This document shows, piece by piece, positions 4,265 through 24,098 of a stretch of DNA of 64,000 bases. This DNA is from Akkermansiaceae bacterium (GTDB lineage: Bacteria > Verrucomicrobiota > Verrucomicrobiia > Verrucomicrobiales > Akkermansiaceae). Below the pieces are notes generated by a model. It was not told the origin of the DNA. It saw only the letters and a program-made list of their open reading frames with translations, and ran no database searches. Each line of letters begins with the position of its first letter. The stretch's first letter is position 1. The stretch covers positions 1-64,000 of the forward strand of contig CAIVSK010000222.1 in assembly GCA_903908495.1 (NCBI GenBank), given 5' to 3'. The translations under genes were made by a program, and so were the position numbers.

Positions 4265-7015
4265 TCACGGATTGGCTTGGGAAACGCCCACGCGGAAAAA
4301 CCTGGCTTTCTGCGGACCACGGGCGGAGTCAATCAATCCCGGATACGGCACCCGCACCGCCAGGATCTCTCCTGTGGCAGTGATGGGTTCCGGAGCCACC
4401 GCACTGGGCACCCAGCAGCCGTTTTCCAGGTCCGCGCTGAATTCCACTGTGTAGCTCAACCCGGCTGCCAGATAGTCTGTCCGGCGGCCGAACACCGCGT
4501 AATACATCCCGCCGTCCTCGATCATTTTCGGCGTACCTGGCGTGGTAACCGATGTTCCGTCATAGACGATGGACGCGCCCGACGAAACTCCCGGATTGGT
4601 GCCGAAGGCATATTCCAACAAATTGGAAAGACCGTCGCCGTCCGGGTCACCTGCGGGGGTTTTGACAGAGAGTGAAGGCCAGGTGGAATTGATCCAGAGG
4701 GAAAACGGATCGCTGGCGAAGGTCAGGGTGCCGGTGATTTGATCGAACATCCAGGTGTTGGTCCCAACGTTCTTGGACCAAACGCCGGATTGACTCGTGA
4801 AGGAGCCGAGCGAGCTGTTGACGGAAAGGGTGCCTCCATAATGCAATACAAGATTGGCTGCATCCACCAGCAACCAACTGATGCCGGAAGTGGTGTCGGC
4901 CCCCGACAGGTCGAGATAGATCTCGCCGTCAAGGGTGACCGATGGGGATCCGCCACCGGTTATCTTGTTAGAAACGCCGTTTGCTACCGGATAGAAGCGG
5001 GTGCTGCCGCCGGCGGCAAGAACCAGGGCACCGCCGGCCTCCACGGTGGTGTTACCGCGGTAGGTGTTGGAGCCGTAGAGCGTCAGGGTGCCCGCCCCGA
5101 GCTTTGTCAGACCGCCGTAGCCGGTGGCCGCGGCCATGAGGTTCGGGTGGATGCCGAGATTGCGGCCGTTGGAGTTGATGATAGCACCACCGCCGGCGAC
5201 ATAGGTGTTTTGGTTGCCGCCATAGAGCGTGATGAAGTCGGCGTTGTCGGCACCGATGGCGGTTAGTGTACCGCCATTGAAGGTCAGCCAGGCACTGTTG
5301 TTGGTTCCCACCTCGCGGTCGGCGACGCGCAGCGACGGAGTACGCAATTCGCCGCCATTGAGGTCCAGTTCGAAGGTCGCCCCGCTATGGACCGAGCCGT
5401 CCACGCCGTTGGTCGCCGTCACCGTCCCGCCCGCGATGACCAAACGACCCCAGTCGGCGCTGGCGGCGGAAGTGATGAAACGGCCCACGGTGACATCACC
5501 GCCGGCAATGGCCACCGTGGCGCGCCCTGCTGCCACGTCGCCCGCAAGAGTAACAGTGGCCACGTTCAGGGTCAGCGTGGGATGGACGGCGTACACTCCG
5601 TCATTGGCGCCGTTTCCCTGCACGGTGAGGGAGGTAGCGGTCAGACTGGTGCCGGAAAAGGTGGTGGAGGGAAAATTGATGCTGATGTTGCCCACGTTGA
5701 CCGACCCGGTGGTGATCGCATCCAGTGACACGGCGCCGCCCATCGAGGTGAAGAACGCGTTGTCGGGCCGGCCATTGTCCCACGTCGCTCCCGACCAGTT
5801 GGCATCGGTGCCGTTCCATAGCGCGGTGGCGGCACCATTGTTCCATGTGAGGTCGCGAGGCGCGTCGATCCACTGGGCATAGAGCGTGGTGGTGCCCGAA
5901 ATGGTGAAGGTATCGGCTGGATTGTAGGGCGTGCCGCTGCCGTCCGCCATGGTATTCCAGTGCGAGAGCGCATAGCCACCCGAACGTGCCAATCCGCCGG
6001 TATTGCCCAGGACCGTCACGGTGGCGCCGGAGAAATAACTATTGGTATCGGCCGGGGGGCTGCCCCCGGTGTAGCCGTTGCCGTTATAGATCAGCGCATA
6101 GCTGCTGTTGGCAAGCCAGCGGGCATACAGCTTCGTGTCGCTGGTGATGGCGAAGGTGTCGGCCGGGTTGTAGTTGGAGCCCGAGCCATCGGCGGCGGTG
6201 TTCCAGCCGAGGAGCGAGTTCCCCGTCTTGGTCAGACTGCCGACACCCAGCACGGTCACCGTCGCGCCGCTGGCATACGGGCCGTTGGAATCCACGGGCG
6301 CGCTGCCACCGTCGCTGCCGTTGCCGTCATAAGTCACCGTGGCATGGGCGGGCCGCGCGGTCAGGGTGAAATTGGAGATCTTCACCTGACCGATATTTCC
6401 GGCACCGGCCACACTCGTAAACCAACCGACATAGGCAAGTCCCTGTGAATTCGTCCAACCGGGGGCACCGGTGTTGAGCGTGACGGTAAGCGTCTTGGTT
6501 TGGCCGCCGCGCACCAGGCCGCGGTCACTGTTGCCGTCGCTGAGATCGGCGACAAAGTTGCCGGGCACCCAATTGCTTGGATTCTGGGTAAACCCGAGGG
6601 TGAACCATTCCACATTGCTCCATGCCGCCGCATCGATGGCCGCGGTGAGAGTATAGATTGCCCCGGCCACCGGCGTGAACGCCAGATAGTTGCTGCTACT
6701 GGGCATGGCGTAGCCGCTGCCGGTCTGGCCCCACCCGCCGGTCTCCGCGTTGAACGTCCAGCTGGAGGCTGAATAATTGCCGCCGCCCGGCGTCGGGTCC
6801 GTGCCCCGCACGCTCGGCGCGGTCCCGGCCAGCGACGAGGTGTAAGGACTGCCGCGACCTGTGCCCGGGGTGGTGAACGAATCCTGATAGATGGTGGTGT
6901 CGGCCAGGACGGTGGCTGAACCAGCCGCGAACAGGGCGGCCGCAAGGAATGCCCGGGACGGACGAATGAAGATTGTCATGAGGGACGGCATGCTCGGTAT
7001 GGACGGTTTTTTCAT
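4265..7015 (-). CDS. Large secreted protein with InlB-type and beta-strand repeats
   Basis: The product is about 916 residues. The start at 7015 (MKKPSIPSMPSLM) gives a signal peptide ending SATVLA. Residues ~40-225 form a jelly-roll-like region starting TTIYQDSF. Residues ~226-303 and ~304-383 are two tandem InlB/Listeria-Bacteroides repeats (VTYDGNG...GWNTAADGSG...LYARW). A pectin-lyase-like beta region follows, with an autotransporter-associated repeat (LTKLGAGTLTLYGSNTY, ~residue 650). The C-terminus has the calcium-like motif DPDGDGLSNLLEYAFG and the common terminal beta module. It is divergent from the AraC gene at 7181 with a shared regulatory site between them. It is probably a surface glycan-binding or adhesion protein of the carbohydrate region; no catalytic residues are recognised. 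Confidence 0.75.
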   Translation of the reverse strand: MKKPSIPSMPSLMTIFIRPSRAFLAAALFAAGSATVLADTTIYQDSFTTPGTGRGSPYTSSLAGTAPSVRGTDPTPGGGNYSASSWTFNAETGGWGQTGSGYAMPSSSNYLAFTPVAGAIYTLTAAIDAAAWSNVEWFTLGFTQNPSNWVPGNFVADLSDGNSDRGLVRGGQTKTLTVTLNTGAPGWTNSQGLAYVGWFTSVAGAGNIGQVKISNFTLTARPAHATVTYDGNGSDGGSAPVDSNGPYASGATVTVLGVGSLTKTGNSLLGWNTAADGSGSNYNPADTFAITSDTKLYARWLANSSYALIYNGNGYTGGSPPADTNSYFSGATVTVLGNTGGLARSGGYALSHWNTMADGSGTPYNPADTFTISGTTTLYAQWIDAPRDLTWNNGAATALWNGTDANWSGATWDNGRPDNAFFTSMGGAVSLDAITTGSVNVGNISINFPSTTFSGTSLTATSLTVQGNGANDGVYAVHPTLTLNVATVTLAGDVAAGRATVAIAGGDVTVGRFITSAASADWGRLVIAGGTVTATNGVDGSVHSGATFELDLNGGELRTPSLRVADREVGTNNSAWLTFNGGTLTAIGADNADFITLYGGNQNTYVAGGGAIINSNGRNLGIHPNLMAAATGYGGLTKLGAGTLTLYGSNTYRGNTTVEAGGALVLAAGGSTRFYPVANGVSNKITGGGSPSVTLDGEIYLDLSGADTTSGISWLLVDAANLVLHYGGTLSVNSSLGSFTSQSGVWSKNVGTNTWMFDQITGTLTFASDPFSLWINSTWPSLSVKTPAGDPDGDGLSNLLEYAFGTNPGVSSGASIVYDGTSVTTPGTPKMIEDGGMYYAVFGRRTDYLAAGLSYTVEFSADLENGCWVPSAVAPEPITATGEILAVRVPYPGLIDSARGPQKARFFRVGVSQANP

Positions 7016-7122
7016 GGGCGATTGGATGTCGGATTTGGAGCTGTAAGAATCATCCGGGTGCGGAGATATCCGGAAAACGCAACGCACGCCTGACAACCTG
7101 TCAGTAAGACAACGGGTTTACC

Positions 7123-7156
7123 ATGGACAAATCCTCAAAATTCTTGCACTTTTGCC
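7123..7156. promoter_or_regulatory. Putative AraC-regulator site A (divergent promoter region)
   Basis: This 34-bp stretch begins ATGGACAAATCC and contains TTCTTGCAC. It recurs as site B at 14736-14769, with identical 12-nt and 8-nt blocks, and more loosely at 24048-24081 (23 of 34 positions). Here it lies 107 nt upstream of the beta-repeat gene start at 7015 and 24 nt upstream of the araC-type start at 7181. This is a typical place for an autoregulated divergent operator. The assignment to the neighbouring regulator is an inference. Confidence 0.55.
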
Positions 7157-7180
7157 TTTGTCTTCAGGATTCACGCCGCC

Positions 7181-8059
7181 ATGAAATTGATCGACACCAC
7201 CGACGCGAGGGCGCACGCCCGCATGAGAACCCTTGTCAGCAACTCCAGCGCGGAACGCGAATGCCAGCTTGCCGGGAAATTCCGCATTCATCTGGTGGGC
7301 ATGTATTTTGCCGAGGTAGGATCGGAGTGGGGATCGGATCGAAAACAACAAAGTGACTACCTGCATCACATCGAAGTGGTCTTGTCAGGCCGGCGGCAGG
7401 TGGTCCATGAGCGGGTGGTCCATGCTCTCGAACCGGGACAGGTCTGGTTTCTGCCTGGCAACACTCCGGTGGAACGGCGCTGCAAGGAAGAGTGCGAGGT
7501 TTTGTTTTTCAAATTGAGCTGCGAATGGCTGCCGGGAGTGGATCCGCTGTTCGATTGGCCCGGCCGCGAACCGCGGAAAATCGGCGGCTTCGATCCGGCG
7601 GAGTGGCGCCGGTGGCTGGAGCCTGATAGAACCATCGGCGTGGCCGGCTTGTTAGAGCTGCGCGGGCACTTGCTGTCGTGGATGGCCGTGGCAGTGCCGG
7701 AGATCGACGAGGTGATCACGCGCCATTTGGAGACGCACACCCAGTTCACGGAGGTGTTCAAGTTCATCGAGCGCAACCTTGGAGCGGACTTGCGTCTAGG
7801 GCCGCTGGCCAAGACCTACGGCACCACCCTGGATGCATTTTCGATGGCGTTTTCCCGCAGCACCGGCATGAGTCCCAAAGATTACCTGACCCGCCGCCTC
7901 AATCAGGAGGCGTTGCAGTGGGTGATCAACTCCGATCTCAAGATGAAGGAAATCGCCGACAAGCTGCGCTTCAGCGACGAGTATTACTTCAGCCGGTTCT
8001 TCAAGAAGCTCAACGGCAGTGCGCCGGCGAGCTATCGCCGGCGGTGGTTGCGCGGATGA
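7181..8059 (+). CDS. AraC-family transcriptional regulator
   Basis: The protein has 292 residues. The N-terminal ~150 residues form a cupin-like sensor domain (HHIEVVLSGRRQVVHERVVHALEPGQVWFLPGN), the usual sugar-binding half of AraC proteins. Residues ~190-292 carry two helix-turn-helix motifs: LGPLAKTYGTTLDAFSMAF with STGMSPKDYLTRRL, then MKEIADKLRFSDEYYFSRFFKKLNGSAPASYRRRW, which is the AraC signature. It is transcribed away from the beta-repeat gene at 4265-7015 and faces the glycosidase at 8160. A decayed duplicate of its first ~65 bp lies at 14797. It likely activates the surrounding carbohydrate genes in response to a sugar; the inducer cannot be read from sequence. Confidence 0.92.
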   Translation: MKLIDTTDARAHARMRTLVSNSSAERECQLAGKFRIHLVGMYFAEVGSEWGSDRKQQSDYLHHIEVVLSGRRQVVHERVVHALEPGQVWFLPGNTPVERRCKEECEVLFFKLSCEWLPGVDPLFDWPGREPRKIGGFDPAEWRRWLEPDRTIGVAGLLELRGHLLSWMAVAVPEIDEVITRHLETHTQFTEVFKFIERNLGADLRLGPLAKTYGTTLDAFSMAFSRSTGMSPKDYLTRRLNQEALQWVINSDLKMKEIADKLRFSDEYYFSRFFKKLNGSAPASYRRRWLRG

Positions 8060-8159
8060 GCGAGTGGTTGAGGAGAATCCGGCGGCCCGGATCAAGGAAG
8101 GGTAACGTCGCGGTGGTTGGCTGGATAGAAACCGCCGTAAATCGAGATCCGCGGTCGCC

Positions 8160-10880
8160 TCAGGGCGCGTATATCTGGAACTCGTTGATGTTGATAGCCA
8201 TGGCGGCCTTGAGGACGTTGAGGCGCACGAAACGTGCCTTGACCGGCGGGAACTCGAGTTCCTTGCATGCCCCGATCGTCGTGCCGTGCGCGATTTCCTT
8301 CCATGCCTCGCCATCCTTCACTTCGATGGCAAACTCACGCGTCTCGGGCCATTCGATTTCGGAAACCATGGCACCGGCCATTTCCTTTACCGCGCCAAGG
8401 TCGATTTCCAGCCAACCCGAGCGCGCACCGTAGTCCGAAGCCCAGCGGGTTTTCAGATCGCCATCATTCGCGCGGGGCGCGTCGTAGCCGGGTTCATTGA
8501 ACTGGCTCGACGCCTTGATCGGTTTGCCTTGGCCGAGGGACACGCGCGGTTTGGCCGGTTCCCATGCCGGTTGTTTGCCAAGCCAGTTCACGATGTCGTT
8601 GGCGCGTGCCTCGGGCGTGACCTTGAGGCGTGTCAGATGGCCGCCCCGCAACGTGGCTTCGACCACGGTTTGTCCCGGCGCATGGAGTTTGAAATCGACA
8701 TCCCACCCGGCCGGCCACGCGGGGAAGAGATGGAGCTTGCCATTGGATCCCGGTTCCGGTGCGAGCAACATTTCCTGAACGCCGGTCATGCCGGAGCCGC
8801 CCCAGTTGTGATCAGGCAGCCAGTCGTGGCCGGGGCCGAAGAAGGCGGGAAAGCGGGCCTGCGGTGCGGTGTTGTTAGCCATTTTGTAGATCGCGCGCTC
8901 CTTCGCCTTATCCGGCGATGCCAGGGCCGCCATATTGACCAGATTTGCCATCCACGAATAGTCCTGCTTGCACAAGCGGGCGCGGTCCTCGGGGATGGAG
9001 TCCCAAGTGTCCCGGCCGAGCTGCAAGGTCTCCGGCTGGGTCACGCCGACCAAGCGATATGGCCAATAGGCATACATTTCGATGGGCTCCCACTTGTTGT
9101 ATTCGGCGGTCCAACTCTTCGCTGGCAACAAGGATTTCACTCCGCTGCGCCGGCCGACCGGCAACGGCGGCAACGTCCTTGAAACTGCTAGAATCCGTGT
9201 GCGCAGACTGGCGGGAAGATCCTTGAGCGCCAGCAATCCCGCGGTCACCCGCTGTAGGGCGCACACGGCGTCGATCGGGTTGGTGGCGTCGTGCGCGAGT
9301 TCCAAGCCATTGCCCGGATAGATCACCAGCTTGCCCTCGTCATCGTACTCCTTGCCGCTGCGCTTCTTTGTCTCGGCGCGATAAAAGCTGTCATAGAAGA
9401 GCACGGTTCCGGCGATCCACGCCAGGTCCTGGTCGAGCGGAATGCCCATGGTGTCGTGAGCCTGGAGGTTCATCCACGCGTTTTCAATGCCCATCGAAAA
9501 GTGATAGGTGAGGTGGGTGGCACCGCAGAGGCCGTCGGGCCTCGGGCCGACCGGGCAAAGCCCCCAGACATTGAGCGGCTCGGTATAGACCACGCCCTCC
9601 GCGCCGTGGATTTTGGCCCGTGCTGCGGCCGCCTTGGCGCGATCCCGATAGAAACGCGTGGTGGGTGCCAGCAGATCCGCATCGCCGGAAGCCACCGTCG
9701 GCCAACCGAGCCAGCGTTGGTTCTGCGACATGAAACAACAGCCCATCCAGCGGCGAAAATCCGGGGTAATCGGCTCGCCCTCGAAGGTGGGCAACTCGTC
9801 ATTGTTGTTGCCTTTGATGCGGCCGTTGTTGTCGGTGGTGAAGATGCCGCCGTTGAAAAGCAGCGGCAGTTCGCCATCGCGGTTGCAGGCGAGCATGTAG
9901 CGGAAAAGTTGATAGTTGCGGCCGATCAGGAAACCGGGATCCTGGGATTGTGGATTGTTGATTGAAGATTGTAGATTGATGTGGATGTGAGAGCGGCTCC
10001 AGAATTCGTTCCAGCGCTTCAACTCATCGGCTTTCGCCGCCTGGCGGGTCCTGGGGTCCAGCAATGCCTTGGCCTCGGCGGGCCACTGTTGTGGGTCGGC
10101 ATCCACTGCGCCTTCGAGGCGCATCGTGATGAGTTGCTGCGTGCGGGAGGGGGTGATTCCGGTCCATGCCTTGCCATTCCAGAATTGCCACCGCACTTGT
10201 GATTCTGAGGGCTGTGACATGCCGCCGTCCACACAGACGGCCGCGCCAAAAACGCGGCGCGCCGTGACATCCGGCAGCGACTCCGGGGCGATCCCCTGCC
10301 CTCTGGCCATGCCGGCGAGATCGATCGGATAGTCCGCATTGCGGTGAAACCAGAGGAATCCACTGGTCGACGTCTTGATCTGATCCGCGCTGAAAGTGGT
10401 CTTCGAGCCCATCATGTCGTTGCGGATGCCGTCTTTGGTCTTCTCACGCCAAGTGCCGAAGGCGACTTCGAGCGCGGCCGGTTTGGCGGTTTCGGATTCA
10501 AAGATGAGTGTTTCCCCAGCGAACCAGAGCGCCGCGCTGAAATCCCCCTGCCGGATCGTGATCGTTCCCGTGGCAGGATCAAGCTCTTGAACAAATCCCG
10601 CATCGCCGAGTTTCACGTCCTTTGGCGTGAGTCGAATGCTGCCGAGTTTGAGCAGGCGGCCGTTTTCGTCATACGCACCGTTGTGGGCCAGATAGAGCCA
10701 GATCGAGCCGTCTTGCACCCAGACATTCGCACCGGCACCACCACGCCCCGACAGCGGCATGGAATCCAGCGAGTCCTGTGAGGGTGATTTCCAATCGACC
10801 TTGTAGCCGACCGGCAAGTCCGCAGCCGGGAGCTGGGCGATGGACAGCGCCAACAGAATGAGCGAAACAGGTAGTTTCAT
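8160..10880 (-). CDS. Secreted GH95-like six-hairpin glycosidase with DUF5703 and F5/8C domains
   Basis: The product is about 906 residues. The ATG at 10880 gives a signal peptide (MKLPVSLILLALSIAQLPAA). Residues ~25-290 match the DUF5703 N-terminal domain (SLDSMPLSGRGGAGANVW, IWLYLAHNGAYDENG). The middle is an (alpha/alpha)6 barrel related to GH95 alpha-L-fucosidases, with YMLACNRDGELPLLFNGG and the HLTYHFSMGIENAWMN region. The last ~130 residues are a discoidin/F5/8C carbohydrate-binding domain (RANDGDLKTRWASDYG, GWLEIDLGAVKEM). Residues ~301-312 (NLQSSINNPQSQ) come from five tandem DNA heptamers at 9946-9980, inserted at the domain boundary. It probably removes deoxy-sugar side chains from a polysaccharide; substrate is inferred from the neighbouring fucosidase-like genes. 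Confidence 0.8.
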   Translation of the reverse strand: MKLPVSLILLALSIAQLPAADLPVGYKVDWKSPSQDSLDSMPLSGRGGAGANVWVQDGSIWLYLAHNGAYDENGRLLKLGSIRLTPKDVKLGDAGFVQELDPATGTITIRQGDFSAALWFAGETLIFESETAKPAALEVAFGTWREKTKDGIRNDMMGSKTTFSADQIKTSTSGFLWFHRNADYPIDLAGMARGQGIAPESLPDVTARRVFGAAVCVDGGMSQPSESQVRWQFWNGKAWTGITPSRTQQLITMRLEGAVDADPQQWPAEAKALLDPRTRQAAKADELKRWNEFWSRSHIHINLQSSINNPQSQDPGFLIGRNYQLFRYMLACNRDGELPLLFNGGIFTTDNNGRIKGNNNDELPTFEGEPITPDFRRWMGCCFMSQNQRWLGWPTVASGDADLLAPTTRFYRDRAKAAAARAKIHGAEGVVYTEPLNVWGLCPVGPRPDGLCGATHLTYHFSMGIENAWMNLQAHDTMGIPLDQDLAWIAGTVLFYDSFYRAETKKRSGKEYDDEGKLVIYPGNGLELAHDATNPIDAVCALQRVTAGLLALKDLPASLRTRILAVSRTLPPLPVGRRSGVKSLLPAKSWTAEYNKWEPIEMYAYWPYRLVGVTQPETLQLGRDTWDSIPEDRARLCKQDYSWMANLVNMAALASPDKAKERAIYKMANNTAPQARFPAFFGPGHDWLPDHNWGGSGMTGVQEMLLAPEPGSNGKLHLFPAWPAGWDVDFKLHAPGQTVVEATLRGGHLTRLKVTPEARANDIVNWLGKQPAWEPAKPRVSLGQGKPIKASSQFNEPGYDAPRANDGDLKTRWASDYGARSGWLEIDLGAVKEMAGAMVSEIEWPETREFAIEVKDGEAWKEIAHGTTIGACKELEFPPVKARFVRLNVLKAAMAININEFQIYAP
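9946..9980. repeat. Five tandem GATTGNN heptamers inside a coding sequence
   Basis: Consecutive units GATTGTG, GATTGTT, GATTGAA, GATTGTA and GATTGAT lie inside the glycosidase gene. They encode an Asn/Gln/Ser-rich loop without breaking the frame. Related heptamers occur at 32261-32288 and 62703-62758. Confidence 0.8.
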
Positions 10881-10963
10881 GGGGGGGTGTGAAAAAGTGA
10901 GAAATCGGGGATCGAATCGTTGCATGCGGGGTGGGGAGTTATTTATATCAGTCATTCAAAGGG

Positions 10964-11338
10964 CTAGGCAAGTGTATTGAACCGGCCTCCACGACGAAAG
11001 TGTGGTAGTTCATTACGCTGGAGGCGGCCGATGCGATCCGCGAACTGTTGCAGAGCCAGCCGCGTTCCTCCGCGTTCGATGCCGGCATAGAGAATGCCCA
11101 TCTCGCCCTTGAGCGAGGGCATCTCCCCAGCCCAGACCAGGGAGAAGCGCTCGTTGCAATAGAGCGGACGGTTGTCCCACCGCGTGCCGTTGCGGATCAC
11201 GATGGCGTCGCCTTCCGGACGATAGATCAAACCTTCGTGGATCTCCCCATCGGGCGCGGCGGAGGCAGCAACGACGGCGGCCAAACCGAACAAGATGGCA
11301 ATCCTTGCCGATGCGGATCGTGAAGGACGTTGGGTCAT
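10964..11338 (-). pseudogene. Truncated DUF4450-like secreted protein
   Basis: The frame encodes 124 residues: a signal peptide (IAILFGLAAVVAASAA), then EGLIYRPEGDAIVIRNG and NRPLYCNERFSLVWAGEMPSL. This looks like the start of DUF4450-type proteins from polysaccharide loci, which normally run to many hundreds of residues. Similarity stops near FADRIG, exactly where a 56-bp sequence begins that is also found at the 3' end of the MFS gene (15385-15440). The last ~25 residues are therefore translated repeat DNA, and the gene looks truncated by recombination. It lies upstream of, and in the same direction as, the GH95-like gene. The family call is moderate. Confidence 0.55.
10981..11036. repeat. 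56-bp direct repeat, copy 1
   Basis: It matches 15385-15440 at 52 of 56 positions in the same orientation. The repeat begins ACCGGCCTCCA and ends GGCGGCCGATGCGA; its ends are roughly complementary (GGCCTCCA and TGGAGGCGGCC). A third partial copy, CCGGCCTCCAC, lies at 14724-14734. The two full copies bound 4.4 kb of rearranged DNA. Confidence 0.85.
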
Positions 11339-11399
11339 TTCTTTTCTAACAACAAGCCGGTTTTTTCAGCGCTTTACGAACGCATCGGGCATCCGAGCG

Positions 11400-11415
11400 C
11401 TCCGGTCGGGACCGG
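11400..11415 (-). other. Palindromic hairpin downstream of the beta-repeat gene
   Basis: TCCGGT and ACCGGA flank a 4-nt loop, 44 nt after the stop of the gene at 11460-14618. There is no following U-run, so it may be a processing or Rho-assisted end rather than a standard intrinsic terminator. Confidence 0.3.
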
Positions 11416-11459
11416 AATCCGGGAGGTAATTGGCCTGGCGTTCGTTGCATTTGCTACGA

Positions 11460-14400
11460 CTATGGCTTCGTCACTGCGAGGCGGCCGAAGAGATTTGTGT
11501 TGGATCCTCGTGGCACGGTGACGACCACTTCATCGATGCCACCTCCGATGTCCGTGACCACCACACCGGTGCCACCCGGGATGGCGAGCGGCGTCCAGAT
11601 TGTTAAATCATCACTGTATTCGAACCTCTGGGTGGTGTTGGCGGTGGAAGCGGCGCGGCGGTGGAAGGTGAAGACGAGATCCGTGGCCGTTGTGGTGGTG
11701 GTGGGCAGGATGGCGGTGGACCCAAGCGACGGGTCGCCATTTTGCAGCACGTATTCCAACAAATTCGGGATGCCGTCGTGGTCGGGATCGGCACCGGGCA
11801 GTTTGTCCGCTGGAGCGGTGATGGACGGATAGAGGGCCATCCAGGTTTCGTAATCGGCAGCTGCGGTGGCGTAAGTCAGAGTGCCGGTAGCTTTGGTGAA
11901 GACCCATTTCGCACCGGTGACGGGGAGTTCCCAGACGCCGGGAGTGACTTGGGTGAATGAACCAAGGGTGGTGCTGGTCACGGCGGCAGGAGTCAGGACC
12001 GGGGCGGTGGTGAAGCTGGCGAGGTTGAACAGGGTCCAACTGTTACCAAGGGTCGTGTTTGCGGCGCTGAGATCGAGACTGACAGTGCCGAGGAAAGACA
12101 GCGTGGCGGTGGTGGAGCTGCCGGAAACCGCATTGGTGACACCGTTGGTGGTCGGGCTGAATTGCAGGCCGCTGGCGGCGGTCACTTGGAGTTGGCCGTC
12201 ATTGACCACGGTGTTGCCGTCGTAGCTGTTGCTGCCCGCGAGCACCATGGTTCCTGTGCCGGTCTTTACCAGACCGGAGCGGCCATACTGCTGGACCAGG
12301 TTGGCACTCACCTGGAGATCGGTGGCAGCCGACCCGTCGTCCACATAGAAGGTGTGGCTGGAACCCGCGTCCGGTCGGAGGACGAGCTGGCCGCTGATGG
12401 TGTTGGTGCTGTCGCCGGAACTGGAGAAGCTGAGCGAGCTGTCGCCGTTCCACTCCCACTGGCCAAACAGCGCAGCGCCATTGTTGAGACTCATGGCCGC
12501 ATGGGTGCCAAAGCCGAGGTGGGTGGTGCCCGAGGCGGTGATCGTGCCGCCGTCCACGGTGATCGAGCTGACCGGATTGTTGTAGAAGCCGAAGCCGGTG
12601 CCGTCACCGCCGGTGACGGCGACCGTGGCACCCGGACTGACGGTCAGTGAGCCATGGATCTGGGCATTTCCGCCGGTGGCTCCGGCGAGTTCCAGCGTGC
12701 CGCCGGTGACGGTGGTGCCGCCAGTGTAGGATTTGATGCCGGTGAAGACGAGCTTGCCACTGCCGGTTTTTTCAAGGCCGAGGAAGCCCGCGACATTGGC
12801 GGAGATGGTGGCCGTGCGGCCGGTGCCCACGCTGATGGTCGGGGTGGTGGACGCGTCGTCGAGAGTCAGGGTATTGGCACCGGCAAGCGTGTAGTCCGAG
12901 GTGTCGAAGGCGAGGTTGCCGATGATCCGGTTCGTGTTGAGGGTGACGGTGACGCCGGTGGCGGCGTTGAAGGTTGCGGTTTGATCGTAGCCCGCAGCGA
13001 CGATGCCGGCGTTCCAATTGGCGGTATCGCTCCAATTTCCGTCCACGGTGGAAATCCAGCTTCCATTCGCACCGAGAACCACCAGCGATCCGGTGCCGGT
13101 GAAATACGAGCCGTAGGTCGGATGACTCGCATTGTAGGTGCCTGGCGGCAGCGGGCCGCTGCCATCGATATCGAGACTGCCGATGATGTCATTGCCGGCG
13201 AAGTTCAGGTTGAAATTGGCGCCATTGGCGATGGTCACGGCGGAACCATCATCCAGGACCGGGTGGGTGAGGGAGAGTGTGCCGGCGGAAACGGTGGTGC
13301 CGCCGGTGTATGTGTTCATCCCGGAGAGAACCAACGTACCGTCGCCGCTTTTGCTGACGGTGGAGGGGGTTCCTCCGGTGCCGGGGCTTCCGTAGTAGGC
13401 CCCATTATGCAGTACCCCACCGACGTTCAGCGTGGCTCCGCTGGCAACACTGAAATCCACGTTGGTCGCACGCAGCGCGGTTTCAGCGTTCAGATTGGAC
13501 GTGCCCGTGGCCGTCACGTTGCCCGTCAGGAAGAAGTTCCCCCAGTCGCTGTTGCCGCCGCCCACCGCATCCACGGTGCCGCCGTTGAGAGTCAGGCCGT
13601 TGAGTTGGTTCGCAACGCAGTTGTCAGCGTGCAGCGTTGCGCCGCTGCCCACCGTGACACCACCGCCGCCGACATTGCTCAAGGTCCAGGCACCCGACGC
13701 CAATACCAGCACGCCTTGGTTGACGGTGGTTCCGCCGGTGTAGTTGTTCGACTGGGTGAGCGTCAGCGTGCCGGCGCCGGCCTTGGTCAAGGAGCCGCCG
13801 CCGTTGATCTGGGTGGCAATCGTCACCGCATACGCGGTGTTGAGCGCCATCCCGCCGCTTGAAAGCGTCGCCGCGCCACGGCTGCCTGAATTCCCGTCGT
13901 TGAAGACCTGGATGTAATCACTACTGTCTCCCGTAGCAACCAACGTCACTCCACCGCCCATGGTCAAGCCACCGCTCCCGTTCCACGTGGCGTTGCCGAC
14001 CTTGATGGACGGCGTGGTGGCCGTGCCGCCATAGAGTTCCACCTGCGTGGCGATGCCGGAAAAATCAATCCCGCCCGTGGCTGTCACGGTGCTGTTGTCG
14101 GCCCGGAACACGCACCACGCATCCACGGATTTGATTGTTCCGCTGACATTCATGGTCGCACCGTTGAGGTAGAGCATGCCGCGCTGAACCGTCACACTGC
14201 CGCTGACAGTGGCGGTCATGTTCTCGAGCCTCTGCCGCTGGTTGTATGCATCCGTGATACTGTCCACATTGCCACCCAAGGCAACGCCAGAAACCGAAAT
14301 GCTCTGTAGCGTCAAATTGCTGTTAGTAAGAATGAGTTCGTGCGCGTTTGATTCCCGTCCACCATCCTTGAAACTCAGACTGCCGCCGGTGATGGCTTCG

Positions 14401-14618
14401 GTCAGCGTGACCGTGCCTTGGAGGTTGTTGAAAATCGCGTTGTCGGGATTCGAGTTGCTCCAACTCGAGCCGGACCAATTCGTATTGGAGGTGCTCCAGT
14501 CGCCCGGGAGGGCGGCATTCCATGTCAGCTCAGCGGCGTGAGCGACGGCCGCACCGGCGAGGGTGAGTGCGAAAGCACAGGTCGCGAGCGGGAAGCGGGA
14601 GTGGAAACGGGGTTTCAT
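11460..14618 (-). CDS. Large secreted autotransporter-associated beta-strand repeat protein
   Basis: The protein has 1052 residues. Its signal peptide (residues 1-28) ends AVAHAA, followed by ELTWNAALPGDWSTSNTNW, the usual entry of this family. At least four autotransporter-associated repeats are seen: LTKAGAGTLTLTQSNNYTGG, VSKSGDGTLVLSGMNTYTGG, LEKTGSGKLVFTGIKSYTGG and LVKTGTGTMVLAGSNSYDGN. Each builds one turn of a right-handed beta-helix. The C-terminus has the calcium-like motif DPDHDGIPNLLEYVL and the shared terminal beta module. No outer-membrane barrel domain is present, so secretion is not by a classical type V route. Its upstream region carries site B, like the AraC-linked protein at 4265-7015. 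It is probably a surface glycan-interacting protein. Confidence 0.8.
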   Translation of the reverse strand: MKPRFHSRFPLATCAFALTLAGAAVAHAAELTWNAALPGDWSTSNTNWSGSSWSNSNPDNAIFNNLQGTVTLTEAITGGSLSFKDGGRESNAHELILTNSNLTLQSISVSGVALGGNVDSITDAYNQRQRLENMTATVSGSVTVQRGMLYLNGATMNVSGTIKSVDAWCVFRADNSTVTATGGIDFSGIATQVELYGGTATTPSIKVGNATWNGSGGLTMGGGVTLVATGDSSDYIQVFNDGNSGSRGAATLSSGGMALNTAYAVTIATQINGGGSLTKAGAGTLTLTQSNNYTGGTTVNQGVLVLASGAWTLSNVGGGGVTVGSGATLHADNCVANQLNGLTLNGGTVDAVGGGNSDWGNFFLTGNVTATGTSNLNAETALRATNVDFSVASGATLNVGGVLHNGAYYGSPGTGGTPSTVSKSGDGTLVLSGMNTYTGGTTVSAGTLSLTHPVLDDGSAVTIANGANFNLNFAGNDIIGSLDIDGSGPLPPGTYNASHPTYGSYFTGTGSLVVLGANGSWISTVDGNWSDTANWNAGIVAAGYDQTATFNAATGVTVTLNTNRIIGNLAFDTSDYTLAGANTLTLDDASTTPTISVGTGRTATISANVAGFLGLEKTGSGKLVFTGIKSYTGGTTVTGGTLELAGATGGNAQIHGSLTVSPGATVAVTGGDGTGFGFYNNPVSSITVDGGTITASGTTHLGFGTHAAMSLNNGAALFGQWEWNGDSSLSFSSSGDSTNTISGQLVLRPDAGSSHTFYVDDGSAATDLQVSANLVQQYGRSGLVKTGTGTMVLAGSNSYDGNTVVNDGQLQVTAASGLQFSPTTNGVTNAVSGSSTTATLSFLGTVSLDLSAANTTLGNSWTLFNLASFTTAPVLTPAAVTSTTLGSFTQVTPGVWELPVTGAKWVFTKATGTLTYATAAADYETWMALYPSITAPADKLPGADPDHDGIPNLLEYVLQNGDPSLGSTAILPTTTTTATDLVFTFHRRAASTANTTQRFEYSDDLTIWTPLAIPGGTGVVVTDIGGGIDEVVVTVPRGSNTNLFGRLAVTKP

Positions 14619-14735
14619 GACTTAGGTTGATGCTGGGTTGGGAATCAGGGATTGGGAGGCCAATGCGGGACGCGGCATTCCGCCGTTCACTTGCCAATGT
14701 CCGGAAATGCTATACTCAACTGCCCGGCCTCCACA

Positions 14736-14769
14736 ATGGACAAATCCCTAAGTTTCTTGCATTTTTCCA
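14736..14769. promoter_or_regulatory. Putative AraC-regulator site B
   Basis: This is a near-copy of site A (7123-7156): ATGGACAAATCC, then TTCTTGCA and TTTT in the same spacing. It is 117 nt upstream of the beta-repeat gene start at 14618, close to the 107 nt seen for site A. The other side carries a decayed araC start at 14797, so the whole divergent arrangement is duplicated, and the site has stayed more similar than its flanks. Confidence 0.55.
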
Positions 14770-14796
14770 ACAACCAGCAATTCTTGAATCCATCCC

Positions 14797-14862
14797 ATGA
14801 AGCCGCTGACACACCACTGACGCCAGAGCTCACGCCAGCATGCGCAATCTCACCAGCAGAAG
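14797..14862 (+). pseudogene. Decayed 5' end of a second araC-like regulator gene
   Basis: Compared with the araC start at 7181, the DNA here keeps ATGAA, then the segment equivalent to residues DARAHARMRTLVS with only a few mismatches in about 28 aligned bases. A 1-bp insertion puts that segment out of frame: the ATG frame stops after MKPLTHH. Similarity ends near 14862, and the rest of the gene is absent. It lies 27 nt after site B, matching the 24 nt between site A and the intact gene. Confidence 0.65.
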
Positions 14863-14869
14863 CCTGCCA

Positions 14870-14968
14870 CTGTCGGTGAAGCGACACTTGAACGCAACCG
14901 ACAGGCAGCAGGCGGCTCTTGTCGCCCTTGCCGTGGCGGATGAGCAGCGCGCGGGCGGGATTCTTCAC
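14870..14968 (-). pseudogene. Tyrosine-recombinase-like fragment
   Basis: The minus strand encodes KNPARALLIRHGKGDKSRLLPV, which resembles the beta-sheet segment of tyrosine recombinases and integron integrases (an IR-x-GKG-x-K-x-R-x-x-P pattern). The Arg-His-Arg-Tyr catalytic regions are not present. The piece ends where the araC remnant begins. It is a short relic at best, and a chance match is possible. Confidence 0.35.
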
Positions 14969-14983
14969 TTTTTATCTGTCACC
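14959..14983. repeat. 25-bp element shared with 4160-4184
   Basis: Same sequence as at 4160-4184 with one mismatch (TTCTTCAC for TTCTTTAC), in the same orientation. It abuts the recombinase-like fragment. Confidence 0.6.
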
Positions 14984-15075
14984 ATGTACTGACATCGCTA
15001 CGAGTGCCCGCCTATTCATGACTCGCGGCGAGGACATCCTGCGCATGACGCCCGGGAGTTCCACCCGCCCAAACC

Positions 15076-15246
15076 ATGAAAACGAAAACACTCCCGTGCC
15101 CCGAACGCTTGCGGCACGTGCCCCGCCAGTTTAGCTGGATCGATCAACGTATGGTTCGCAACCGCCAGTATCGAGCAGGCAGTAACTCAAACTTTAGCGA
15201 GGTGAAGCCTCAATCCAGGCAAGAGGTGAAGAGGACTTCGGCGTGA
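15076..15246 (+). pseudogene. Truncated 56-residue ORF resembling an IS-associated helper
   Basis: The frame starts MKTKTLPCPERLRHVPRQF and continues SWIDQRMVRNRQYR before losing resemblance and stopping at 15246. The opening resembles the N-terminus of hypothetical proteins often found next to transposases (PERLR-x-x-P-x-x-FSW-x-D-x-R-x-VR), recalled from general knowledge and not verified. If right, most of the gene is missing. Confidence 0.35.
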
Positions 15247-15384: not shown

Positions 15385-15440
15385 ACCGGCCTCCAGGACG
15401 AAAGTGTGGTGGTTCATTCCGCTGGTGGCGGCCGATGCGA
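15385..15440. repeat. 56-bp direct repeat, copy 2
   Basis: It matches 10981-11036 at 52 of 56 positions. It covers the last 27 bp of the MFS gene and the 29 bp beyond it, so the final residues MRSHRPPPAE of the transporter lie within it. Confidence 0.85.
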
Positions 15441-16877
15441 ACGCATTTCCTCCAGCCGTCCCCGGGACATCGGATAGAACCGGATCGCCAGCAATGATGC
15501 GAGACAGATCCCCGCGCCGATGACGAAGGTGACCATGCCCAGAAGCCAGATGGCCTGCGGTGCCTGGGTCACAGCCTGGCCGTTTTTAGGCACCTGATAG
15601 CCGATGCCGCTGAGGCACCACCCGCTGACGATCAGGCTGAAGGAAATGGCCATGCGCATCGCCAGGCTGAAGACCGATGAATAGCCGCCGTCCTTCACCT
15701 CGCCGGTTTGCAGGCGGCGCACTTCGCTGACGTCCGCCATCATCGCGGTGGAGATTGGCAGCATAATGCCGTTGCCCAGCCAGTAGCCGGCGTGAAAGAT
15801 GACAAACAGCACCAGCGCGAGCGGCAGGGTGGCACCGCCGATGGCAAGCGTGGCGTCCGGCTTGACCATGCCTGTTAGAAACAGCAGGGCCAGCATCAGA
15901 TTGCACAGGATGCTGATGGAGCCGCCGATGAGCACCGCGCCCTTTTTGTCGAAGCGTTTGGTGAGGCCCATGGACAGCAGGGCGCCGAGCGCCATGCCGA
16001 CCATGGTGCCGCCGTGGGCGATGGACTTCTGCCAGGCCGGGAATTTCATGAAGTCATCATACACGAACATCTGCAGCGAGCTGACGATGACCATGCCGGC
16101 GCAGACGACGAAGATGAAGACAAAGACCCAGCGCGGATTGGGATCGGCAAGGATCTCCCTCATGTCGCTGAGAAAATCCCTGAGCCAGCCGTGTTGCGAA
16201 TCGCGGGCGACGGCACGGGTGTCCTCATGCCAACGGAAAGTGAAGATCATGACTAACAGAACAAACACCGCAGTGGCGGCGGCGAAACACCCGCCCATGT
16301 AATGATAGTTCGCCTCCACGGTGGTGGCTTGCACGCCGCCCTTGTCCTTGAAGAAAACCGTCCATGCCATGGCGGGGCCGGCGAAGTTGGCGGCCATGTT
16401 GAAGATTTGGCGGATGCCCTGGAGCCGCGATCGGCCCTGATAGTCGCCGCACATTTCGAAACCGAGCGCCATGTAGGGGATGAAAAACAGGGTGAGGCCC
16501 GTGCGCAGCAGCAAATTCATCGCAACCAGATACCAGAAGATCGCCATCTGGCTGCCGCGGCATACGCCGGGAACCGTCCAGATCAGATAGGAACAAAGCG
16601 CCATCAGCAACCCGCCAAGCAACATATATGGATGACGGCGGCCCCACCGGCTGCGGGTGTTGTCGCTGACGTGGCCCATGACCGGCTCGGTGACCGCTTC
16701 CCAGAAGACCGAGAGTGACATCGCCAGCCCGGCCCAGGTGGGATCGAGGCCCAGCGATTTGGTATAGAACAGCATCGCGAAACCGAAAATGCCGTTCATC
16801 ACCAGCGAATTCGCGCACTCGCCCAGCGAGTAGGTGAGCATGCTGCCGGTTGTGCAGGTCTTGGGTTTTTGGCTCAT
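15414..16877 (-). CDS. MFS sugar:cation symporter (GPH/MelB type)
   Basis: The protein is about 487 residues with roughly twelve hydrophobic segments. The MelB-type signature DNTRSRWGRRHPYMLLGG sits in the first cytoplasmic loop, which places it in the glycoside-pentoside-hexuronide family of inner-membrane sugar symporters. The ATG at 16877 (MSQKPKT) lies 22 nt after the stop of the fucosidase-like gene. A longer frame to 16916 would overlap that gene and adds only polar residues. It is the last gene of the GH106-like/GH29-like operon, so it probably imports the released deoxy-sugar or oligosaccharide. Its 3' end overlaps a 56-bp repeat also found in the truncated DUF4450-like gene. Confidence 0.88.
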   Translation of the reverse strand: MSQKPKTCTTGSMLTYSLGECANSLVMNGIFGFAMLFYTKSLGLDPTWAGLAMSLSVFWEAVTEPVMGHVSDNTRSRWGRRHPYMLLGGLLMALCSYLIWTVPGVCRGSQMAIFWYLVAMNLLLRTGLTLFFIPYMALGFEMCGDYQGRSRLQGIRQIFNMAANFAGPAMAWTVFFKDKGGVQATTVEANYHYMGGCFAAATAVFVLLVMIFTFRWHEDTRAVARDSQHGWLRDFLSDMREILADPNPRWVFVFIFVVCAGMVIVSSLQMFVYDDFMKFPAWQKSIAHGGTMVGMALGALLSMGLTKRFDKKGAVLIGGSISILCNLMLALLFLTGMVKPDATLAIGGATLPLALVLFVIFHAGYWLGNGIMLPISTAMMADVSEVRRLQTGEVKDGGYSSVFSLAMRMAISFSLIVSGWCLSGIGYQVPKNGQAVTQAPQAIWLLGMVTFVIGAGICLASLLAIRFYPMSRGRLEEMRSHRPPPAE

Positions 16878-16899
16878 GGATGGGTGGTGGAGTTGTTGC

Positions 16900-18927
16900 T
16901 CACTCGAATTTTCCAATCACCCGGAATTCGTTCACCCGGAGCGGCGGGCCGGGCTTGGTGCGGGCGAGGCGGACGAAACGCGCGGTTGTTTCGTTAGATA
17001 GTTCGATGACCCATGGTCCGGCATTGCCGATGGAAAGCAGATCGTTTTCCGCGACGGTCATGGCGTCATCCTTGCCGTTGAGGGTGAACTCGACGCGCAG
17101 TTCCTTCGGGGCATCAGGCGCGGGATCGCCGCCACTGAGGGCGTTCTCGGCCTTCACGGCGAGGCCGCCGCAAACCACTGCCTGGCGAACCTTGGCAGTG
17201 ACATCGGCCATCTTGTCGCCCTTGCCGTAGGTGGCTTTCCTGATCTCCAGGGTGACTGGCCCGGCGGCCTGCGAGGTGGCCAGGATTTTACTCTTGGTGA
17301 AACCCGGATCCGACGAAACGGAAACCGCGACGTCCGCTCCCAATGAACCGAGCACCTCAATGCGGGCAAGCTTCGCGGGCTTGCCGAGATCGACCTGGCA
17401 CCAAGGCATCGTGTCCGCGGGCACCGGTGCGTTGCCGGGAGTGATGCCATCGGGACGCGATGACCATGCGGTGCCGGGATTGCCATCGACTGCGTGGAAG
17501 GCAAAAGCCGAGCCACCGGCGGCCGTGGGATCGGGAAACGACGATGCGCGGAAGGCTTTCCACAAGGCAATGTTCACCGGCGGCGAATCCGCGGCGGTTT
17601 TCAGCGCGATGACGGTGTCGAGCTTGTCCCAATTTTCTCCGGCTGGAAGCTGAAGGTGTACCCCGGCCTCGTCCTGTTGGATTGTGACCGCCCTCTTGCC
17701 GACTAACAAGACTGCCTTGTCAAAGCGCTTGCCATCTGCCGGCGGCGGCAGGGTGAGGGATTTCGCGCCGCCGGCCGGTGGCGTGAGGACATGCAGGTAT
17801 TCGATCGAGTCGTCGGTCGCGCGAGTGGCCACTCCCCATTTGAGGTCGGGCAGCTTGGTGCCCGCCGCGGTGGGCCACGAGGTGCTGGCAAACACATTTT
17901 TGGTAGATGCGGCGATGGGTTTGATATAACTTCCGAGCTGGGTCATCGTTTCATCGACGCCGGTTTCCCAGCCACCCCCGGCATAGTTGCCCGCGGCCCA
18001 CTGGGTGCCGCCGCCCTCGTGGTTGGCTCCGGCCTGGAGGACGGTATAGCGGAACATGTCATCGGGTTTGAAAACCACGGTGTTTTTTCCGGCCGGCACG
18101 GCAGACCACCAGGTGGTGGCGAAACAGGTGGCCACCGACATCCGGTAAGCCGGCCAGGCGTTGGCGTCGGTGTTGGCGAACTCACCCCAGTGGTGGTATT
18201 CCTTGCATCCCGTGTCCAGCGAGTAACTGGTGCCATACCAATTCTGGACCATGATCAGGTCGGGCTGGAGGTCCTTGACGGTGCGGCGCAGACGCGGGTA
18301 ATCGACGACCTTGTAGCTGTCTCCCGCGCCGCTGCCTTCGTCGGAATAGATGCCGATGAGATCCTTGCCATAGCGGGCGACGAGTTCTTGATAGAGTTCG
18401 TTGGTGAAATCATTCCACTTCTTGCGGTCGAAGTTCTCCCACTTCGGATCGGTGTTGTTGGGACCGCCCCAACCGGTCTTGAGCTGGTCCTTGGGCTGCA
18501 GGTCGTGACCGTCCCGCGGGTGGGTGTAGAACATGACCTTGATGCCCTTGGCCTTGCAGGCGGCAATCACATCGCCTAACAGATCACGCTTGCAGGCGTG
18601 GTCGGCCATGCCCCATTTCTTCATTGTCGCACTGGGAAACAACGGGTTGATATTGTAGTGCCAGGCGGTGAGGATGACATATTCCACGCCCCACCTGTCA
18701 AGGTCGTTGGCCAAGCCCTTGGCATCAAAGGAGGCGGCGAATTCATCGAAGGTGGCGGGTTGTTTGCCTTCCCGGTCCTTGGTGAACTGGGTACCGGGTC
18801 CTCCGCCCCAGACGAAGTGGACGAAAAACCCGTACTTGGATTTCTGATACTCCGCCATGCCGTTGGTCTGGGCATGGAGGACGGATGTGGCGAGCAGCAG
18901 GCTGGTGAGGAAATACGGGAGTTTCAT
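16900..18927 (-). CDS. Secreted GH29-like alpha-L-fucosidase with C-terminal F5/8C-like domain
   Basis: The product is about 675 residues with a signal peptide (MKLPYFLTSLLLATSVLHAQ). Residues ~25-450 form a (beta/alpha)8 barrel like GH29: KYGFFVHFVWGG, GVEYVILTAWHYNINPLFPS and FYTHPRDGHD. IGIYSDEGSGAGDS carries the Asp expected to be the nucleophile. The last ~200 residues, which the neighbouring paralogue lacks, resemble a discoidin/F5/8C module (FHAVDGNPGTAWSSRPDG, WCQVDLGKPAKLARIEVLG). Its ATG overlaps the stop of the upstream paralogue in an ATGA. The two enzymes are close relatives and probably arose by tandem duplication. The linkage preference is unknown. Confidence 0.8.
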   Translation of the reverse strand: MKLPYFLTSLLLATSVLHAQTNGMAEYQKSKYGFFVHFVWGGGPGTQFTKDREGKQPATFDEFAASFDAKGLANDLDRWGVEYVILTAWHYNINPLFPSATMKKWGMADHACKRDLLGDVIAACKAKGIKVMFYTHPRDGHDLQPKDQLKTGWGGPNNTDPKWENFDRKKWNDFTNELYQELVARYGKDLIGIYSDEGSGAGDSYKVVDYPRLRRTVKDLQPDLIMVQNWYGTSYSLDTGCKEYHHWGEFANTDANAWPAYRMSVATCFATTWWSAVPAGKNTVVFKPDDMFRYTVLQAGANHEGGGTQWAAGNYAGGGWETGVDETMTQLGSYIKPIAASTKNVFASTSWPTAAGTKLPDLKWGVATRATDDSIEYLHVLTPPAGGAKSLTLPPPADGKRFDKAVLLVGKRAVTIQQDEAGVHLQLPAGENWDKLDTVIALKTAADSPPVNIALWKAFRASSFPDPTAAGGSAFAFHAVDGNPGTAWSSRPDGITPGNAPVPADTMPWCQVDLGKPAKLARIEVLGSLGADVAVSVSSDPGFTKSKILATSQAAGPVTLEIRKATYGKGDKMADVTAKVRQAVVCGGLAVKAENALSGGDPAPDAPKELRVEFTLNGKDDAMTVAENDLLSIGNAGPWVIELSNETTARFVRLARTKPGPPLRVNEFRVIGKFE

Positions 18928-20312
18928 GGATTGGATTCGGATTGGCGTGGCGACGACCCCTTGGCTTCGAGGCGGATGACGGTGTTGAGCTTGTCCCATG
19001 ACTGGCCGTCCGGGAGTGTGACGAGATAGCCGGCCTTGTCGAAATCGAGTTTCACCGTGCGGCCACTGGTGAGCAGGGTGGCCGTGCCGAAGCGGACACC
19101 GTTGGCGGGCATGCCGATGCGTGCTTGTTGACCGGCGGGCGGATTAAGGATGTGGAGGTAGGTAATGGAGCCGTCCGGCGAGTCGGTTGCCACTCCCCAA
19201 TCCACAGCGCGGACGCCCCAGCCGATGTTCTTGAGAGCGGCTCCCTTTTGGGTCGGGAAGGCGTTACTGGAGACCGTGCCCTTGATCGACCGGGCGATGG
19301 GTTTCAGATAGCCAGCGAACTTCGCCATCGTCTCGCTCACACCGGTTTCCCAACCGCCGCCGGCGTAGGGTCCCGCGGCCCACGCGACACCACCGCCGAG
19401 CGTGTTCACGCCGGCTTGGAGGACGGTGTAGCGGAACATGTCCTCGGCGGAGTAGGTCACGGTGTTAGCTCCGGCGGGTTTCGCCGCCCACCAGGTGGTG
19501 GCAAAGCACGCCCCCACCGGAACACGCAAACCGGGCCAGGCTCCGCCGTCGCGGTTCTCGAACTCGCGCCAATGATGATATTCCATCATGCCCAGATCGG
19601 CGGAATACGGGGACCCATAGTCGTTCTGCATCATCAGGAGATGCGGGTGCCGGCCTTGGATCGTCTTGCGCAGGCGCGGATAGTCCACCACCCGTTGGCT
19701 GTCGCCCGCCGAACTGCCTTCGTCGAGGTAAAGGCCCTGGATGTCCATCCCGTAGCGGTTCACGAGTTCAGCGTAGAGTTCGTTGGTGAAATCATTCCAT
19801 TTCTGATAGTCGAACTGGTTCCAATCCGGATCGCCGCCCTTGCCGTCCAGGCCCCAGCCGGTTTTCACGCGTTCCTCGGCGAGCAGGTCATGGCCGTCAC
19901 GGGGGTGGGTGTACAGCCATACCGCGATTCCCCTGGCCTTGAGCGCCTTGATCACCTCGCCGATCAGGTCGCGATTGCAGGCATGGCCGGGCAGGCCCCA
20001 CTTCCTCATGGTTGCACTGGGAAAGAGCGGGTTGATGTTGGCATGCCAGGCGGTGAAAATCACATACTCCACCTGCCAGGCGGCCATGTCGTTGGCGAAG
20101 CCCTCGACATCGAAGGCATCGGCGAGCGCGTCGAAGCTGTCGGACGTGTTGCCATTGCGGTCGATGGTGAGTCCGCCGCCCTTGCCGGCCCAGACGTAAT
20201 GGACGAAGAAGCCACATTTGGATTGCAGGAAATCCGAAGTGATCCCGGCAGCGGGTGAAGGGGCCGTGGACAACCACAGCGAGGCAAGGAAGGCGGTGAG
20301 TCGTCTTATCAT
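18924..20312 (-). CDS. Secreted GH29-like alpha-L-fucosidase, single domain
   Basis: This 462-residue protein has a short signal peptide (MIRRLTAFLASLWLSTAPSPAAG). The barrel matches the downstream paralogue almost throughout: KCGFFVHYVWAGKGG, VEYVIFTAWHANINPLFPS, LYTHPRDGHD and IQGLYLDEGSSAGDS with the likely nucleophile Asp. It stops after the barrel and a small beta domain (VTLPDGQSWDKLNTVIRLEAK), lacking the F5/8C tail. It is joined to both neighbours by ATGA overlaps (20309-20312 and 18924-18927), so the operon is tightly coupled in translation. Some enzymes of this branch are only distantly fucosidase-like, so activity on fucose is probable but not certain. Confidence 0.8.
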   Translation of the reverse strand: MIRRLTAFLASLWLSTAPSPAAGITSDFLQSKCGFFVHYVWAGKGGGLTIDRNGNTSDSFDALADAFDVEGFANDMAAWQVEYVIFTAWHANINPLFPSATMRKWGLPGHACNRDLIGEVIKALKARGIAVWLYTHPRDGHDLLAEERVKTGWGLDGKGGDPDWNQFDYQKWNDFTNELYAELVNRYGMDIQGLYLDEGSSAGDSQRVVDYPRLRKTIQGRHPHLLMMQNDYGSPYSADLGMMEYHHWREFENRDGGAWPGLRVPVGACFATTWWAAKPAGANTVTYSAEDMFRYTVLQAGVNTLGGGVAWAAGPYAGGGWETGVSETMAKFAGYLKPIARSIKGTVSSNAFPTQKGAALKNIGWGVRAVDWGVATDSPDGSITYLHILNPPAGQQARIGMPANGVRFGTATLLTSGRTVKLDFDKAGYLVTLPDGQSWDKLNTVIRLEAKGSSPRQSESNP

Positions 20313-24049: not shown

Positions 24050-24098
24050 GGATTATTCCCCCATTTTCTTAGACTTTTCCGATAAATTGATCGGAAAA
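24048..24098. promoter_or_regulatory. Site C plus perfect inverted repeat upstream of the GH operon
   Basis: Positions 24048-24081 match site A at 23 of 34 positions (ATGGA, TCC, TTTTCTT, ACTTTT). Overlapping it, 24075-24098 is a perfect inverted repeat with arms TTTTCCGAT and ATCGGAAAA around 6 nt. Lying at the start of the GH106-like operon, it is a plausible operator. Site C sits closer to the start codon than sites A and B do to theirs, which weakens a simple analogy. Confidence 0.45.

Follow-up and report, generated by a model that had tools for sequence, protein, structure and literature searches.

The window analysed here, 64,000 nucleotides of DNA from a lake bacterium of the Akkermansiaceae, contains a fucose/rhamnose-glycan cluster in which one 36-base site stands in front of three gene sets, and it raises the question of which protein reads this site and how the same site came to precede all three. 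A first-pass annotation had described two of the sites as parts of a duplicated AraC divergon, one copy intact and one decayed, and had proposed that the surviving regulator controls both targets. This proposal is mostly supported as the best reading, because the site tracks the presence of the regulator, occurs in three copies only in the cluster and has AraC-type geometry, the regulation itself being deduced from sequence. We consider it probable that the regulator encoded at 7181 uses the shared site as its operator, that sites A and B stem from duplication of a divergon in which the araC copy at B was destroyed, and that one regulator would thus serve three units (Table 1).

Table 1. Positions of the predicted operators, promoter elements and genes in the window
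Feature	Position	Strand	Remark
Operator site A, ATGGACAAATCCTCAAAATTCTTGCACTTTTGCCTT	7123..7158	+	between PATR gene P0003 (-) and araC (+); profile E 1.5e-6
Operator site B, ATGGACAAATCCCTAAGTTTCTTGCATTTTTCCAAC	14736..14771	+	profile E 7.7e-8
Operator site C, ATGGATTATTCCCCCATTTTCTTAGACTTTTCCGAT	24048..24083	+	upstream of GH106-led operon; profile E 1e-4
P0003, secreted PATR beta-repeat protein with Flg_new repeats	4265..7015	-	predicted target of site A; start 107 nt from site
P0002, secreted PATR beta-repeat protein	11460..14618	-	predicted target of site B; start 117 nt from site
DUF5703 + F5/8 type C enzyme	8160..10955	-	downstream of P0002
GH106 alpha-L-rhamnosidase	20309..23974	-	first gene of operon downstream of site C
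GH29	18924-20312	-	site C operon
GH29	16900-18999	-	site C operon
GPH/MFS sugar transporter	15414-16916	-	site C operon
AraC-family regulator, intact	7181..8059	+	predicted N-terminal cupin and C-terminal double HTH
5' stub of second araC	14797..14861	+	frameshift after ~4 codons, remainder gone
-10-like hexamer of P0003, CAGGTT (weak)	7095..7100	-	22 nt beyond site A
-10-like hexamer of P0002, TAGCAT	14707..14712	-	23 nt beyond site B
-10-like hexamer of GH106 operon, CATGCT	24020..24025	-	22 nt beyond site C

The two blocks said to be common to sites A and B, ATGGACAAATCC-N6-TTCTTGCA, are present in the same spacing exactly at 7123 and 14736. With up to 3 mismatches the pattern occurs twice in the 64 kb of the window, against 0.01 expected by chance, and with up to 2 mismatches sites A and B are its only occurrences in the 6.2-Mb genome. 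A matrix built from araC-adjacent sites, on which unrelated window sequence scores about half or less, picked out a further site at 24048, shortly ahead of the GH106 gene. Scanning the 6.2-Mb genome with a profile of 16 sites, site C among them, yields sites A, B and C and no others, all in one cluster, the next match having E = 3.2. Site B fits the family profile of all sites better than any other site does, even if the profile is built without it. Both targets of the first-pass annotation do have the site, but the predicted regulon is larger, site C having gone unnoticed there.

Sites A and B precede divergent genes for secreted beta-repeat (PATR) proteins at the start distances claimed earlier. 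The two PATR proteins are paralogues (34-36% identity in two blocks), and local alignment of the DNA between site and PATR start found no significant similarity between A and B. The DUF5703 enzyme is likely a glycoside hydrolase. Downstream of site C, the genes for GH106, two fucosidase-family GH29 enzymes and the MFS transporter run leftward as one operon (15414..23974), consecutive genes overlapping. The open frame of GH106 begins at 24049, and its likelier start, judged from the position of the -10 element, is the ATG at 23974, 73 nt from site C. Orthologues of site C were found at loci L106 and L053.

The protein encoded at 7181 has the two-domain build of the AraC family. Its C-terminal two-HTH domain matches PF12833 (HTH_18; 2.1e-16, 60.4 bits against a cut-off of 33.6), and its structural model matches the DNA-binding domains of AdpA and AraC. 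The N-terminal part is predicted to be a cupin-like sensor/dimer domain (predicted beta strands 35-136), and the model, of moderate confidence (pLDDT 78), also matches full-length AraC-family structures, cupins and the AraC dimerisation domain. Like the targets of RhaS and RhaR, the predicted targets include methyl-pentose genes, and the HTH part of the protein matches the NCBIfam models of both, but the scores lie far below the curated cut-offs. Orthology to known sugar regulators was rejected on these equivalog cut-offs (AraC 34.2/208, RhaS 33.6/288 and RhaR 29.7/363 bits).

The operator consists of half-sites TGnAnnnnTCC arranged as a direct repeat with an offset of 21 (p = 0.0025; 0.024 after scanning offsets 15-24), placing about two helical turns between half-sites, as in operators of AraC/XylS proteins. 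Towards the leftward gene, the 17 sites tested are all followed by a -10-like hexamer at a constant distance of 22-24 nt (mean score 1.76, against a best of 0.70 in 500 shuffles), which puts the site edge at about -35 and gives the site a class II layout, next to or overlapping the predicted -35. In E. coli, the araI1-I2 half-sites at araBAD are likewise direct repeats about 21 bp apart next to the -35. E. coli AraC also shares the cupin-like N-terminal domain, the double-HTH C-terminal domain and the divergent araC gene, whereas the window system has a different motif and three targets, including surface beta-repeat proteins, and nothing in it points to arabinose, DNA looping or a distant O2 site. 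The same operator plan is found at PmtlE of Pseudomonas fluorescens, where a dimer of the AraC/XylS regulator MtlR occupies at least 37 bp just upstream of the -35, in two 15-bp blocks at -72/-58 and -50/-36 with a 22-bp register (PMC4514859). MtlR is a mannitol regulator of a transport and catabolic operon and its site was shown experimentally, whereas the window site is a prediction.

The conserved block might instead be an element of the araC transcript or promoter alone (leader, ribosome-binding or promoter sequence), with no part in control of the leftward genes. The site does lie 22-25 nt before araC in the window, and half-sites TTGCATTTT adjoin araC in G002, G024 and L066. This explanation is nonetheless barely credible: full sites at C, L106, L107, L117, L122, L131 and others lack an araC stub and keep the same orientation to a GH or PATR gene, the -10 spacing is fixed in the 17 sites, and the full site of G024 is about 250-285 nt away from araC, close to the PATR gene. 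Isolated half-sites (TTGCATTTT or TTGTATTTT) separate from the full site were seen directly before araC at L052:5004-5039, L055 (~7650) and L066 (~310), and could serve autoregulation.

The pairing of site and regulator recurs in relatives. GTDB genomes yielded fifteen relatives of the regulator, and these genomes are labelled as Verrucomicrobiota-type MAGs except for one 'uncultured bacterium' and one 'Lentisphaeria'. Identity to the regulator is 51-92% across 13 other Verrucomicrobiota-type genomes, most of which have the site beside araC (at 55-92% identity). Most of the genomes compared are draft MAGs, and sequences from relatives do not count as independent samples. In the set of the 59 closest genomes, every match at E <= 0.001 comes from a genome that has an orthologous araC. 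G020 (59% complete) has a marginal site (E = 0.0011) before its GH106 operon, and G002 has the regulator and a half-site next to araC but no full site.

The search of relatives for the site upstream of PATR and GH orthologues, whose failure the first-pass annotation had named as grounds for rejection, did find such sites. Out-of-sample sites precede GH106 in G029, G020, G059, G060, G061, G062 and G064, GH29 and DUF5703 in G064, and PATR genes in G061 and G064; the G029 and G020 sites, neither of them in the profile, stand before a GH106 orthologue and a GH106-GH29-MFS operon, respectively. At L067 and L068 (55% identity) a PATR gene is missing and the site stands immediately between GH106 and araC, an arrangement suggesting that GH106 is the old target and that the PATR genes were added later. 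The distant relative G064 has about eight sites (L113, L119, L123, L129, L131, L133, L134) before two GH106 genes, GH29, DUF5703, PATR and other genes, and these may represent a larger regulon of the same regulator.

Another protein, an AraC paralogue or a global activator, might own the site, the nearness of araC being incidental. The genome does encode further AraC-type proteins (8 matches at E <= 0.001, the 7181 regulator included), and the sites are defined by profile rather than by binding. The paralogues, however, match the 7181 regulator mainly in the HTH part (24-33% identity), and across genomes full sites accompany the 7181-type regulator and adjoin its gene, making ownership by another regulator very improbable. 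Co-evolution of the sites within genomes was considered as a further signal and rejected: G018 is striking (both sites read ATAGACGAATCC...TTCATG), but a permutation test across 7 genomes fell short of significance (891/5040 permutations as good), and sites sharing a genome are in general no more alike than sites from different genomes.

The origin of sites A and B is recorded in the DNA beside site B. As described earlier, an ATG at 14797 opens DNA that aligns with the first ~65 bp of araC (7181) with a 1-bp insertion (score 49; mean 22 and maximum 36 in 500 shuffles). The +1 frame of the stub reads TTDARAHASMRNLTS, compared with TTDARAHARMRTLVS in araC, and an independent protein search marked an araC remnant at 14810-14923 (weak match, E 0.19). 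The rest of the second regulator is indeed absent, blastn from 14861 to the MFS gene at 15414 having found no further araC. Similarity between A and B continues past the motif, contrary to the other ground for rejection, and the duplication is visible in both arms of the divergon, as PATR paralogues and araC stub, and in the operator between them. No araC stubs were found at the GH106, GH29 and DUF5703 sites, so that operators there carry no trace of divergon duplication.

The statement that the site has stayed more similar than its flanks does not hold for A and B alone (site 27/36, stub 43/64, p = 0.28), and this comparison was set aside as proof of constraint in favour of the relatives and a drift simulation. 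It does hold for B against relatives: against G029 the site is 33/36 and the stub 46/64 identical (p = 0.016), and against L058 the site is likewise above the stub (46/64; p = 0.04). The divergence of stub B from the genes of G029 and L058 is thus 28%; over the stub bases, A, G029 and L058 are only 6-13% apart among themselves. On a profile built without it, site B scores 52.8, against 55.4 for the consensus and higher than any other site; in drift simulated from the best possible site, 20% random change keeps a B-like score in at most 0.3% of cases. These figures favour, without proving, the action of selection on site B.

Site B might alternatively be a functionless leftover of the divergon, resembling A because the duplication is recent. 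The A/B site similarity, not significantly above that of the stub, would fit, as would a decayed third site copy in a Lake Pavin MAG (18.8 bits). We judge this improbable, since site B is the best-scoring of all sites despite the 28% divergence of its stub from relatives, its PATR gene has an open frame of full length (1052 aa) and, at the spacing typical of the family, a promoter-like -10, and the DNA between site and gene has no detectable similarity to A.

The position of stub B bears on which copy is older. Intact araC stands immediately before the convergent MFS gene in G018, G002 and G024, and the same holds for G029 (1.3 kb away) if two contigs are joined over a 113-bp identical overlap, which suggests that stub B marks the older araC position. 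The distinction between an intact copy A and a decayed copy B stands with this refinement: it is the stub, and not the intact copy, that occupies the place next to MFS where relatives have araC, the intact gene of the window lying on the far side of DUF5703-P0002 from MFS. The second regulator may never have been a full gene, the duplication having taken only PATR, operator and the first araC bases, with no decay. Three stubs (42, about 65 and 168 bp) ending abruptly in unrelated DNA, and the 89% identity of the 168-bp stub to its parent, speak for such a partial copy, which is possible but rather unlikely: a full araC stands exactly at the place of stub B in the three genomes named above, and in G029 through the contig overlap, so that a full ancestral gene at B is the simpler reading. 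This argument is limited to stub B, and the Lake Pavin stubs may have arisen by partial duplication.

Under the preferred reading, with a full divergon duplicated, the regulator would probably bind as a dimer to two TGnAnnnnTCC half-sites spaced 21 bp, the PATR- or GH-proximal half-site abutting the -35 position, and would activate leftward transcription, rather than repress it, in response to a presumed fucose- or rhamnose-containing glycan product. The three leftward units would be P0003 under site A, P0002 with probably DUF5703 under site B, and GH106-GH29-GH29-MFS under site C. A duplicated PATR<-operator->araC divergon would be the source of sites A and B: the araC beside site B would have been destroyed by a frameshift followed by deletion or truncation, with operator B and the adjoining PATR gene kept, so that a single regulator may now serve both sites, B being presumed functional.

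Exchange between the two units has also left traces. In G029, araC and the beginning of the PATR gene are similar to unit A (81% over 1.6 kb), and the PATR gene is a hybrid (L051:11197-14451), like P0003 in its N-terminal and middle parts but 89% identical to the end of P0002 over its last 350 bp; L058 6908-9835 has the same mix. This resemblance to both units indicates that recombination between them has occurred. A further G029 contig (L057:1-401; G029:C16) carries araC codons 212-292 after 155 bp of unrelated DNA, with 113 identical bases overlapping the other araC contig; it could represent a second araC, truncated at its 5' end and adjoining MFS, or else variation between strains.

The Lake Pavin MAG (G059) contains one intact araC (92%) and two cases of site plus truncated araC. 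The first stub (168 bp, 89% identical to the MAG's own intact araC) has an intact-looking site; the second (L144:8573-8680; G059:C262:48573) is 42 bp long with the weaker 18.8-bit site, and its leftward gene is a GH29 with the middle deleted, followed by another GH106-like gene. The different lengths and contexts of the stubs imply that the pattern arose more than once. Divergon duplication with loss of the regulator copy may, tentatively and with somewhat less than even weight, be a recurrent route to new surface-protein targets in this Verrucomicrobiota regulon; if so, every duplication would supply a ready-made operator, and araC stubs of varied length would be marks of past events.

GH29 and GH106 genes have been reported in Akkermansiaceae and freshwater Verrucomicrobia (PMC8857213, PMC5615132), and both families are shared with the window cluster. 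Neither paper gives a regulator or operator; the words AraC and autotransporter are absent from both, and PATR from PMC8857213. A search of a literature library joining the AraC family, Verrucomicrobia and autotransporters returned no paper, and one on fucosidase, rhamnosidase and AraC returned gut papers only. Regulon expansion and merger through duplication and loss of transcription factors and sites have been described (PMC5343134, PMC4052901). The process here is of the same kind, but the intermediate (an operator with the stub of a lost regulator) is still visible, several times, whereas comparative regulon studies usually infer it from end states only. The system is an AraC-family local regulon with an unusually legible history of duplication and merger; it offers a testable operator and regulon for fucose/rhamnose-glycan clusters of uncultured freshwater Verrucomicrobiota, and ties secreted PATR beta-repeat proteins to glycan use through shared, predicted regulation.

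Phage records gave no match. A small open frame beside the stub (15076-15243) was considered as a transposon gene that broke araC, and rejected on finding only short, weak genome matches; its last 20-25 codons recur weakly elsewhere in the genome (C41, C374) and might be an interspersed repeat. Just left of P0003 lies an IS200-like transposase gene (Y1_Tnp; 3025-4122), a possible agent of local rearrangement.
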